Position numbers and translations under genes: made by a program. A stretch of 64,000 nucleotides of DNA from assembly GCA_013214705.1 (NCBI GenBank), contig JABSRZ010000004.1, positions 310,001 through 374,000 of the forward strand, written 5' to 3'. Positions within the stretch are counted from its first letter, which is position 1; each line of letters starts with the position of its first letter. This document shows, one piece after another, positions 26,073-46,056 of the stretch. The notes beneath the pieces were generated by a model, which saw only the letters and a program-made list of their open reading frames with translations, ran no database searches and had not been told where the DNA came from. The DNA is from Hyphomicrobiales bacterium (GTDB lineage: Bacteria; Pseudomonadota; Alphaproteobacteria; Rhizobiales; OSC116).

Positions 26073-27809
26073 TTAGTTATTTTGGCGTCTTAAAAAAGCC
26101 GGGATTTCTAAATTTGGTTGCTCATCCGTATTTTCCGCAGTCTTTTCAAATGGTTTTGGCTCTGGACGACGTACCAAAGGCTTTGCCATTGGCTCGGCTG
26201 TGCGGGCTTCTTGGCTGCGGTTTTGCGCACCTTCCACCAAATTGTTATCTTTGCGGCCAAGGCCAACATTGGCCAAGCGATCAAAGAAACTATTGCGTTT
26301 GGTGGTTTGGTCTACATTTTGGCTAGAATCAGCTGGTGCAACCTCAGTTTCGCGGCGTTTATTTTCATATGATTGGCGAATTTCGCGCTGTGCAACCGGT
26401 GGGAAGTCATCTGTGCGCAAAGCATGTGCAGGACTTTGTTGAGCCAAATTTGCCCGTGGCGTATTATTGCCCAAATTACCAGCCACACGGCTTTGTTCTT
26501 GCTCAGACAAACGTTTCATTTGTGGCTGCATCGCCTGTTTGTTCACGCCAATATGGCTGTTTGTCGAAGGGTGCACAGTCGCCGGGCGTTGTGGTTCAAA
26601 AGCTTTGGGCGCAACGTTGCCACTGGCCACATCATGAGTTTCAGATTGCTCTAAACGCACACCAGCTTTGCCGACGGCATCAGATGCTGTTAAGCGCCGC
26701 ACTTCAATATTTTCGGCATGCGGTTTAAGCTCAGCCGTTTCGGTTGCTGGCGCAGGATCGGCCGATTTTTCGGCGGCTGGTTGTGCTGGTACTGGGCGTT
26801 GGTAGCCGTTGCTGGCGCTATTGTCCATTGCCAACAAAGCATCTTCTTTATCAATGCCAGTTGCCACCACCGATACCCGCATAATGCCGTCTAAGGTATT
26901 ATCAGTGGTCGTGCCCAAAATAATGTTAGCTTCAGGGTCAACTTCACTGCGGATGCGCGAGGCAGCTTCGTCAATTTCATATAAAGTTAAATCGTCTCCG
27001 CCAGTGATGGCAATCAACAATCCTTTTGCGCCTTTCATCGACACATCATCTAACAAGGGGTTAGAAATCGCCGCTTCGGCAGCTTCGACAGCGCGTTTTT
27101 CGCCAGTCGCTTCGCCCGTGCCCATCATGGCTTTGCCCATGTCTTTCATGATCGATCTTACATCAGCAAAGTCTAAGTTAATCAAACCTTCTTTAACCAT
27201 CAAATCGGTAATGCCTGACACGCCGCTCATCAACACTTGGTCGGCCATCGCAAACGCGTCCGAAAAAGTTGTATTTTCGTTGGCAATGCGAAATAAGTTT
27301 TGGTTGGGTATAACAATCAGCGTATCAACATGTAGCTCAAGCTCGGCAATGCCTTGTTCGGCAATGTCCATGCGGCGTTGGCCTTCAAATTGGAATGGCT
27401 TAGTCACCACGCCAACGGTTAATATGTCCAATTCACGTGCACAGCGTGCAATAACCGGGGCAGCACCTGTACCAGTACCGCCGCCCATTCCGGCGGTGAT
27501 AAAGCACATATGGCTGCCTTCCATGCAGTCTGCAATATCTGGCAGACTATCTTCGGCAGCGGCCGCGCCAATTTCGGGGCGAGACCCAGCGCCTAAACCT
27601 TCGGTAATCATGGTGCCCAATTGTATTTGGCGCTCTACTTTAGATTGTCGTAATGCTTGTGCGTCAGTATTAGCGACCACAAATTCAACGCCTTCAAGGC
27701 CTTGTTCTGCCATGTTATTAACGGCGTTACCACCTGCGCCACCCACACCAAATACGGTAATACGGGGCTTTAATTCTCTTAGTTCAGGCATTTGAATATT
27801 TAATGACAT
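26073..27809 (-). CDS. ftsZ: Cell division protein FtsZ
   Basis: This 578-residue tubulin-like GTPase forms the Z-ring. The tubulin signature GGGTGTG is at residues 109-115, and the T7 loop [11 protein letters not shown] follows. After the ~320-residue globular core comes a long (about 240 residues), disordered, Pro/Gln/Ala-rich linker and the terminal peptide [13 protein letters not shown], which binds FtsA and other partners. A long linker is typical of Alphaproteobacteria. The start has an AGAGG site. A 205-base spacer to ftsA suggests a dedicated promoter. Confidence 0.98.
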
Positions 27810-43879: not shown

Positions 43880-44869
43880 TTAAGCCAAATTAGGCATTAC
43901 CGGTAGCGGATTAAAATATTCAGCAAACACATCTGCGTCTGTGCGTATTGCGGCGCGTAACTTAGCCGAGCGCGAGCGAATATTAACATCCAACTCTTCA
44001 CTTGTAGCGGTAATTACCTTACGATTGATTAACACAAAGCTGGGCTTGTCCTGCGTATCGACCACCATAACATAGCGCGAAGGCGCAGAAACATTGCCAG
44101 TGCGCAATTTTAAAAAATTTTTAACAATCCGGTCTTCAAGCGAGTGAAAGCTCACCACAACCAACCGCCCATCGGGTTTTAACAATTGTTCTGCGGCGTT
44201 TAATGCCTTGACCAATTCTGCCAATTCTTCATTGACAAATATTCTCAACGCCTGAAAAACCTTGGTCGCCACATGGATTTTCGATTTGCCTTTTTTAATG
44301 GTATTCTCGATTAAATTTGCCAATTCTAATGTGGTTTCAAACGGTTTTTCTGCCCGTTGGCGCAAAATCGCCCCGGCAATTGGGTAGGAACGTTTTTCAT
44401 CGCCTAAAATATAAAATATACGGGCTAAATCCGCTTCCGAAAATTGGTTCACCACATCTGCAGCGCTCATACCTTTGGCGCTCATCCGCATGTCCAATGG
44501 TCCATCTTTTTGAAACGAGAAGCCGCGCTCGGCTTGGTCAATCTGCATAGATGAAATGCCAATATCAAGCACAATGCCATCTGGTTTTTGCACATTATTT
44601 TCACTCAATAAAGTCTGCATATCGCCAAATTGGCCAGCGATAAATTTAAACCTATCGCCATATCCTACTGCCAGCTGGTCGGCAGCCATTTGGGCATTTG
44701 GGTCACGGTCTAGGCCAATCACTTGGCAATTTGCATGGTTTAAAATGTTGCGGCTATAGCCACCTGCGCCAAAAGTAGCGTCGACAATTAGGTCACCATC
44801 CTGCGGGGCTAAAGTTTCAAGCACTTCGGCCATTAACACCGAATAATGTGGGCTGTCTATATTCGCCAT
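43880..44869 (-). CDS. rsmH: 16S rRNA m4C1402 methyltransferase RsmH
   Basis: This 329-residue SAM enzyme methylates N4 of C1402 in 16S rRNA. It starts HYSVLMAEVLETLAP and has DATFGAGGYSRNIL (SAM motif I), DIGISSMQIDQAERGFSF and VVSFHSLEDRIVKNFL, all RsmH hallmarks. It lies 5 bases after mraZ. Confidence 0.97.
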   Translation of the reverse strand: MANIDSPHYSVLMAEVLETLAPQDGDLIVDATFGAGGYSRNILNHANCQVIGLDRDPNAQMAADQLAVGYGDRFKFIAGQFGDMQTLLSENNVQKPDGIVLDIGISSMQIDQAERGFSFQKDGPLDMRMSAKGMSAADVVNQFSEADLARIFYILGDEKRSYPIAGAILRQRAEKPFETTLELANLIENTIKKGKSKIHVATKVFQALRIFVNEELAELVKALNAAEQLLKPDGRLVVVSFHSLEDRIVKNFLKLRTGNVSAPSRYVMVVDTQDKPSFVLINRKVITATSEELDVNIRSRSAKLRAAIRTDADVFAEYFNPLPVMPNLA

Positions 44870-44874
44870 ATAAG

Positions 44875-45342
44875 TTAACGCGCCTTTTGCGCAAATAATT
44901 TACGATGCAATATGGCTTTCTCGCGCGCATCTTGCATATAGATTTCAAATAATTCTGGCGACCATATACGAAATTTATCGCCCATACCAACAAAAGTCAC
45001 ATAATCGTCTATTTTTGCATAGTCCCGCATTTGCTGCGGCACAATGATGCGGCCATCAGAATCTATTTTTAAATTTACCGAAGCGCCAAATAACGCAGAT
45101 GATAAAACATCGCGCTCTTCACTATAGGGTGGCAAGTCTTCAAGTAATTGATATATCTTACTAACCAAGGGCGCACCGCCAGCCTCTATGGCATTCACAT
45201 CAATGGCGGAGTAACAAAATAGCTGATTTGGCGTGTCGGCCGCTATGTCGGTTTTGGCCAAAATAGCTCTGAACGATGCAGGCACAGAAACCCGACCTTT
45301 TTTATCTATTTTATTTTGAAAAGAAGAAACAAAGGGTTGCAT
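44875..45342 (-). CDS. mraZ: Transcriptional regulator MraZ
   Basis: This 155-residue protein of two AbrB-like MraZ repeats has DKKGRVSVPASFR (N-terminal half) and DSDGRIIVPQQMR (C-terminal half), each with the DxxxR core. MraZ forms a ring that binds tandem TGGGN-type repeats and represses the dcw promoter. Five period-10 TGGA/TGGG repeats lie ~190 bases upstream. Confidence 0.96.
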   Translation of the reverse strand: MQPFVSSFQNKIDKKGRVSVPASFRAILAKTDIAADTPNQLFCYSAIDVNAIEAGGAPLVSKIYQLLEDLPPYSEERDVLSSALFGASVNLKIDSDGRIIVPQQMRDYAKIDDYVTFVGMGDKFRIWSPELFEIYMQDAREKAILHRKLFAQKAR

Positions 45343-45529
45343 AACATACCAATACTCAAAACCAACACTGTATGAACCAACTCAGAAGCATTTGAAATGA
45401 ACGAGAGAGATGGCCTCACCTCCCTCGTCCTGCAATTAAACAAGAGCGTGGCAGCCGCCGTGCTGCCAACCCCTAACCTAATATTTTCAAACCCGCCGCG
45501 ATGACATCTAATTCTATTTACGTCATTCC
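45343..45529 (-). promoter_or_regulatory. mraZ leader
   Basis: This spacer between the presumed dcw promoter and mraZ has no gene. It can fold: GGCAGC (45450-45455) pairs with GCTGCC (45462-45467), and a purine-rich GAGGGAG segment near 45419-45426 can pair with nearby CTCTCTC. The ribosome site of mraZ is weak. A long structured leader could carry attenuation, but I see no T-run. Confidence 0.4.
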
Positions 45530-45594
45530 TGGATGATTATGGAATATCATGGGATATTATGGAAGTCAATGGAATTAACCAGACGTTAACCATA
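45530..45594 (-). promoter_or_regulatory. dcw promoter with MraZ-type repeats and CtrA-type box
   Basis: On the plus strand TGGAT, TGGAA, TGGGA, TGGAA and TGGAA begin at 45530, 45540, 45550, 45560 and 45570, an exact period of 10, matching the known TGGGN-N5 MraZ site. Beside them TTAACCAGACGTTAACCAT (45575-45593) contains TTAA-N7-TTAA, the full CtrA box. On the minus strand TTGACT (45564-45569) and TATTCC (45541-45546), 17 bases apart, are a possible promoter lying under the repeats. Confidence 0.65.
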
Positions 45595-45693
45595 AGTATT
45601 AGGGCAATAGCTGCTTGCATGTATAAGCGGTATTATTTTGAATTAGATCAATATAAGCCGAAATATTGTTGACATTGGTTTATTTATAAAAAT

Positions 45694-46056
45694 GCTAGAT
45701 GGCCGATAAGCCGAGTTTTGTAAAAGACAATCATTCATCTGAAATATTTGTTACCAAATATTTTAAGCAACCAACCCGAGCGATCTGATGTAAAAACGCA
45801 TCCATCATAGATAAATCTTGAACCCGCCGCTCCTATTTGGTCTTGCTCCCAATGGGGTTTACACTGCCGTTTCTGTTACCACAAACGCGGTGCGCTTTTA
45901 CCGCACCTTTTCACCCTTACCATGTTAAACATGGCGGTATATTTTCTGTTGCACTTTCCCTAGGGTCGCCCCCGCTGGACGTTATCCAGCATTGTGTTTT
46001 TATGGAGCCCGGACTTTCCTCTCAGCCAAAGCCAAGCGATTGTCTAGCCATCTAGC
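45694..46056 (-). ncRNA. rnpB: RNase P RNA (class A)
   Basis: The ends pair perfectly: GCTAGATGGC at both termini forms P1 (45694-45703 with 46047-46056). Near the 5' end GAGAGGAAAGTCCGGGCTCC is the universal CRI segment, followed by AGGGAAAGTGCAACAGAAA, GGTAAGGGTGAAAAGGTGCGG and, near the 3' end, a region ending CAAAACTCGGCTTATCGGCC. The length of ~363 bases fits bacterial type A. It is the catalytic RNA that matures tRNA 5' ends. Confidence 0.95.

Follow-up and report, generated by a model that had tools for sequence, protein, structure and literature searches.

In the genome of an uncultured Hyphomicrobiales bacterium, the promoter of mraZ carries, directly upstream of its predicted core, a sequence with both halves and the spacing of a CtrA full site, TTAA-N7-TTAA. 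Judging from sequence comparison, this box is probably a genuine CtrA binding site on the mraZ promoter, placed beside a core promoter that would be held by MraZ. Making it credible as such is the combination of a ctrA gene in the genome, a peak of TTAA pairs at spacing 7 in intergenic DNA, and, at mraZ promoters, the conservation of the half-sites and the lead of the N7 spacing over others. The conservation in close relatives suggests that the cell cycle feeds into the wall and division gene cluster. The arrangement thus provides a testable link from an alphaproteobacterial cell-cycle regulator to a conserved cell-wall/division operon, and a defined promoter anatomy, in which the putative CtrA-type site stands beside -35 and -10 elements that lie inside a MraZ-type repeat array.

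Anatomy of the mraZ promoter region

The window, that is, the whole stretch of 64,000 nt that was analysed, contains the following features around the box:

43880–44869, minus strand: rsmH (mraW), 329 aa (TIGR00006, 312.8 bits; cut-off 154.3)
44875–45342, minus strand: mraZ, 155 aa (NCBIfam MraZ model and gene order before rsmH)
45401–45428, minus strand: mraZ leader hairpin with apical UGAGGCCA, a neighbour outside the CtrA claim
45530–45574, minus strand: presumed MraZ operator of five TGG/CCA units repeating every 10 bp (sequence; array common to relatives)
45541–45546, minus strand: predicted -10 element TATTCC with TG-N before it, 17 nt after TTGACT
45564–45569, minus strand: predicted -35 element TTGACT, inside the array and 5 nt downstream of the box
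45575–45593 (pair 45575–45589), no strand assigned: CtrA-type box TTAA-N7-TTAA (sequence, genus conservation, intergenic spacing enrichment)
45691–46055, minus strand, upstream of mraZ: RNase P RNA gene, rnpB (RF00010, 314.1 bits)

Genes were called with a simple longest-ORF rule, without a gene finder. The mraZ product matches its best NCBIfam MraZ model with an E-value of 1.6e-42, but its 145 bits fall below the curated cut-off of 162, and it scores below the cut-offs of the remaining NCBIfam MraZ models too; the assignment is therefore also based on rsmH coming next in gene order. Beyond rsmH comes a gene resembling ftsL (42 bits, below its cut-off of 50) and then, at the position of ftsI, one for a penicillin-binding protein; the same strand runs in close order to a gene at 26073–27809 which, recognised by eye, we take to be ftsZ. 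It is gene order that suggests that CtrA may govern the whole dcw cluster.

On the plus strand the box reads TTAACCAGACGTTAACCAT, which occurs as a single exact copy in the 3,516,053-base genome. It consists of TTAA at 45575–45578, the spacer CCAGACG, and TTAA at 45586–45589, followed by CCAT. As mraZ is encoded on the minus strand, the box reads ATGGTTAACGTCTGGTTAATTCCATTGAC on the coding strand, and the extended half, TTAACCAT (45586–45593, plus strand), is the one distal to mraZ. The box is located between rnpB and mraZ, with 232 bp separating it from the start of the latter. A first-pass annotation of this DNA had described a perfect TTAA-N7-TTAA beside MraZ-type repeats, and both parts of this description hold: the pair, as expected of a CtrA full site, is present within the box, and the box abuts the repeat array.

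The TGG repeats of the array start at 45530, 45540, 45550, 45560 and 45570, and so constitute 10-bp-period direct repeats at a mraZ promoter, as expected of a MraZ operator. The MraZ operator of Escherichia coli consists of TGGG direct repeats. The presumed operator described here resembles it in that the mraZ promoter carries direct repeats of roughly 10 bp, but differs in its TGGRA/CCCAT units, in the location of the -35 element within the array, and in the attached CtrA-type box. A triple CCAT pattern has two overlapping matches at the mraZ promoter and one elsewhere in the genome. Outside the genus, a CCA array with the same period is found at the aligned mraZ promoters of 88 of 104 relatives from the order, representing 31 families. 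In the alignment of these 88 promoters, TTGAC is situated within the array, with its columns 96-100% conserved, and TAT with a preceding TG-N follows 17 nt further (T88 A98 T92 at columns 23-25; T96 G87 at columns 20-21). We read TTGAC as the -35 element and TG-N-TATNCC as the -10 element of a promoter that reads ATGGTTAACGTCTGGTTAA-TTCCATTGACTTCCATAATATCCCATGATATTCCATAATCATCCA on the mraZ strand. The array spans both predicted elements, as the site of an autorepressor would, and the box would be positioned on a dcw promoter autoregulated by MraZ. With 5 nt between the end of the box and TTGAC, the two halves would begin at about -55 and -44.

Spacing preference in intergenic DNA

Counted without regard to context, the bare string TTAA-N7-TTAA occurs three times in the window against 3.83 expected, a number reached by 70 of 100 shuffles, and genome-wide it is found at 166 places, compared with 429 for the backward-read pattern. 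The longer form TTAACC-N5-TTAACC has six exact occurrences in the genome, the box among them; with at most one mismatch there are 48 genomic places versus 126 for the backward control, and with at most two mismatches 16 in the window versus 6.69 expected, which none of 100 shuffles reached. We set overall counts of TTAA-N7-TTAA aside as a test, as they do not separate signal from chance. A comparison of spacings in intergenic DNA does.

This comparison sampled 800 kb, or 23% of the genome, at 44% G+C and with about 9-10% of it intergenic. Among intergenic TTAA-Nk-TTAA pairs, k=7 forms the peak, with 26 pairs against a mean of 12.9 (maximum 21) over 20 other spacings. Requiring TTAAC as the second half leaves 19 pairs at k=7 against a mean of 4.8 (maximum 11, at k=9), and requiring it as both halves leaves nine against 1.2 (maximum 3). 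The respective Poisson tails are 9e-4, 9e-7 and 4e-6. In the coding DNA of the sample, k=7 yields 16 pairs and is among the lowest spacings. The genome thus prefers N7 pairs in intergenic DNA, as is expected for CtrA sites. The proposition that the motif might occur at mere chance frequency in an AT-rich genome therefore applies to the bare string, which does so, but not to intergenic N7 pairs, which lie above other spacings; moreover, the 800 kb sampled are only moderately AT-rich.

Conservation in the genus and at other mraZ promoters

All five congeners have the box at a position that agrees to within 1 bp; the N7 pair is perfect in four of them, while the fifth (G004) has TTAA-N7-CTAA. Across the six genomes of the genus, whose mraZ promoters are 56-91% identical in pairwise comparison, seven of the eight half-site columns are invariant, as opposed to none of the seven spacer columns and 9 of 79 upstream columns (Fisher p 0.0012 for half-sites versus spacer, 1.4e-5 versus upstream). 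The halves are kept in relatives while the spacer varies, as would be anticipated for a CtrA site.

For a broader view, we assembled 119 mraZ promoters, comprising 88 from the order, 6 from the genus and 25 named loci, and tallied the pairs found within 40 nt upstream of TTGAC. From the order, 16 of 104 non-genus promoters were dropped for a repeat score below 15. Eighty of the order promoters had been picked, with their sequences still unseen, for genus spread among the matches listed, a listing that under-represents weak mraZ matches. Of 80 named loci, two were dropped for having less than 400 nt upstream of rsmH and 53 for a score below 15, which left the 25. Most mraZ promoters of the order relatives are without a TTAA-N7-TTAA pair. 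In the whole set, this pair is found in 11 genomes from four genera, while any other spacing from 0 to 20 is found in at most three genomes. TTAA-N7-YTAA occurs in 18 genomes and 10 genera, where each named locus is taken as its own genus, so that related rumen loci are counted apart. In shuffled promoters, none of 1000 trials reached the observed number of genera. Without the genus of the window, N7 still leads, with TTAA-N7-TTAA in six genomes and TTAA-N7-YTAA in 12, while TTAA pairs at other spacings from 0 to 16 are present in at most three genomes each. The recurrent N7 pairs belong to f4/g54 (three genomes), f34/g34 (two genomes) and locus L058, and loci with TTAA-N7-CTAA include L036, L041 and L050. 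A perfect N7 pair in Kiloniella (L023), with halves at about -41 and -30 as judged by eye, lies beyond the 40-nt limit and was not counted.

Could the box nevertheless be a chance match in moderately AT-rich intergenic DNA? The totals for TTAA-N7-TTAA in window and genome, which are at or below expectation, would allow for this, and about half of the intergenic N7 pairs would be expected anyway if the C is disregarded. However, the excess of pairs with TTAAC in both halves, the genus footprint that retains the halves but not the spacer, and the prominence of N7 at the mraZ promoters of other genera make a chance origin improbable.

Another reading is that the TTAA nearest to TTGAC is part of an extra, worn MraZ repeat, with the second TTAA being incidental. 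A lone TTAA exactly 11 nt upstream of TTGAC is seen in 20 of the 88 order promoters, and no other position has one in more than five. C is also the preferred base at -13 (65%) and -12 (53%), which lie one period ahead of the first CCA. As this lone TTAA coincides with a possible additional CCA repeat and is ambiguous, we set it aside as an order-wide CtrA half-site and kept it out of the evidence for CtrA. In the genus, however, the halves are at -20 (-21 in one genome) and -9, out of phase with the CCA array, the positions -13 and -12 are not CC, and both halves are conserved, which renders a worn repeat quite unlikely as the origin of the box.

CtrA and the genes near other sites

The genome does encode CtrA, as the first-pass annotation had asked to be checked. 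A Caulobacter CtrA query retrieves one protein with 80% identity, the next best having 36%, and this protein scores 419.6 bits in the NCBIfam CtrA equivalog NF045991, above the cut-off of 350; absence of ctrA is thereby excluded. CtrA was also found in all ten further genomes tested, with the copy in G004 being a fragment.

The 26 intergenic N7 sites are flanked by 31 distinct proteins. Twenty of these, chosen by us, were scanned against Pfam, plus the mraZ product separately; two were scanned as fragments and two gave no match. The ten outside the scan include, by eye, some metabolic or transport genes. Near the sites, we found motility and signalling proteins, namely two flagellins, FliL, FlgB- and FlgF-type rod proteins, a methyl-accepting chemotaxis protein with CHASE3, and Cache-HAMP, GGDEF-EAL and Hpt proteins, and further an HU/IHF-type protein, sigma-70, DnaB, LysM-M23, cold-shock, FecR, a DEAD helicase, AIR synthase and PCMT. 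Because the scanned proteins were hand-picked and ten were left out, the list of motility genes does not constitute an unbiased tally. As to the enrichment in front of division and motility genes that was to be checked, several sites precede flagellar or chemotaxis genes and others sigma-70 and DnaB genes, while mraZ is the sole division gene recognised behind such a box in the 800 kb. For comparison, the cited passages report flagellar genes as CtrA targets in Caulobacter, and rpoD as CtrA-bound in Brucella (PMC4287350, PMC3616915). As a side observation, two more full TTAACC-N5-TTAACC sites (G000:C34:181876 and G000:C23:265727) are candidate CtrA targets; one is located between an Hpt-domain gene and a gene for 983 aa, which has no Pfam match in the part scanned, and the other before the dnaB gene.

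Orientation of the box

Owing to its C extension, the CtrA motif has a direction. At the mraZ promoter, the extension points away from mraZ, i.e. antisense, in all six genus genomes and in all three genomes of f4/g54; in the two f34/g34 genomes the orientation is tied. Among the 17 N7 sites of the 800-kb sample with a single target, nine are sense, four are antisense, mraZ included, and four are ties.

This orientation raises the question whether the box instead drives plus-strand transcription antisense to rnpB, towards which the TTAACCAT halves point, all the more as the other CtrA sites of the sample mostly point to their gene. However, the genus alignment has no conserved -10 element beyond TTAACCATAA, four of the nine invariant flank columns adjoin the box, and no plus-strand gene starts before 47201, apart from short ORFs over rnpB. 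We thus regard a plus-strand promoter as very unlikely.

What would CtrA do at the mraZ promoter?

In the scenario we prefer, CtrA would bind the two TTAA half-sites on the mraZ promoter, flush against the intact -35 element TTGAC, while MraZ would bind the 10-bp repeats over -35 and -10 and so hold down its own operon, with the two proteins occupying adjoining DNA. CtrA, being active at specific stages of the cell cycle, would then modulate a promoter whose level is in other respects governed by the MraZ loop, and would thereby alter the supply of the first dcw genes. The composite switch envisaged in the first-pass annotation is thus partly supported; that annotation made no mention of the intact TTGAC behind the box or of a C extension pointing away from mraZ.

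As in full CtrA sites of Caulobacter crescentus, both halves and the spacing of 7 are present, the site is intergenic, and CtrA is encoded (PMC4287350, in the part consulted). According to the passages at hand, the 5' end of full, activating CtrA boxes lies close to -35 in Caulobacter, one example being -39, and in R. sphaeroides a gap of 23-24 nt separates the end of activating boxes from the start (PMC4287350, PMC6180460). Unlike the boxes described for Caulobacter, which start near and overlap the -35 element and have the C extension towards the gene, the present one starts at about -55 relative to the predicted elements, some 17 bp further upstream, with the full TTGAC behind it and the C extension directed away (PMC4287350).

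As the box covers neither -35 nor -10 and leaves the core promoter free, we lean slightly towards activation by contact with RNA polymerase, at roughly an even chance. Almost as much speaks for repression, or for CtrA interfering with MraZ at the first of its repeats, since the box has the reverse orientation and lies farther upstream than activating boxes of the classical kind.

A different arrangement is seen in Caulobacter and Asticcacaulis, whose promoters are outside the set of 119 due to repeat scores of 12-14. At all six loci so labelled (L042, L056, L059, L070, L079 and L087), TTAAC is found over the predicted -10 element of mraZ (CATGTTAAC), and L074 has TTAA at this position. Among the 88 order promoters, not one has TTAAC over the predicted -10. 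Half-sites over -10 have been reported as repressing in the passages cited (PMC4287350, PMC6180460), and the TTAAC in Caulobacter and Asticcacaulis is possibly such a repressing CtrA half-site. With this would fit that, in the part of the report consulted, mraZ and ftsL are raised upon loss of CckA function in Caulobacter (PMC12421884). As the half-site over the Caulobacter -10 is different, the sign of the effect in the organism of the window cannot be read from Caulobacter. Speculatively, CtrA may have captured the mraZ promoter several times and in opposite senses, through a full, reversed site ahead of an intact -35 element in this genus and in f4/g54, and through TTAAC over the predicted -10 in Caulobacter and Asticcacaulis, so that dcw expression goes up or down by lineage while the MraZ loop is unchanged, although we consider this rather doubtful. 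If the sign does differ by lineage, it would provide a simple case of a cell-cycle network that was rewired around an unchanged feedback loop.

Relation to other regulators of mraZ

For Sinorhizobium meliloti, a prediction already places a CtrA motif in front of mraZ (PMC3616915; mraZ is named in PMC4414408, both as far as consulted), and thus the link between CtrA and mraZ as such is not new. The box is like this motif in being of the CtrA type and preceding mraZ; beyond the passages on S. meliloti go the conservation, the abutting repeat array and the orientation described here (PMC3616915, PMC4414408). The word mraZ is absent from the main texts of the S. meliloti CtrA ChIP-seq paper (PMC4433202), the alphaproteobacterial CtrA survey (PMC2877005) and the Caulobacter start-site paper (PMC4287350). 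In the accessible portions of the open-access literature on CtrA together with mraZ, dcw or mraW, we found no description of a CtrA box that adjoins an array of MraZ repeats. The box is a putative CtrA-type site with unusual position and orientation.

Two-component regulators at mraZ have a precedent in Rhodobacter sphaeroides, where, in the passages cited, NtrX is reported to activate mraZ-mraY directly and ChIP places CenR at the same promoter (PMC7240162, PMC9275681); these are other response regulators with other motifs. It is very improbable that NtrX or CenR uses the region with the TTAA pair not being the effector site: although the motif proposed for NtrX, GCA-N9-TGC (PMC7240162, in the part consulted), has one match at 45604–45618, this motif and TGA-N8-TGA are unlike TTAA-N7-TTAA, and the former recurs in none of five congeners and 3 of 24 order relatives, the latter in one of six genus genomes.

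A hairpin in the mraZ leader

The leader hairpin downstream of the promoter is a separate observation. It is kept in all six genus genomes with at least 12 pairs; at the 12 pairs compared, all cells are paired, and both sides have changed in a compensatory manner at six. In the window and eight relatives searched, it belongs to no Rfam family; at gathering level only RNase P was found, and matches below it are at chance level. The hairpin may represent an undescribed leader element. Among 104 order relatives, 24 carry GAGGCCA or GAGGCTA upstream of mraZ, although in two or more of these the motif lies a long way from the leader.
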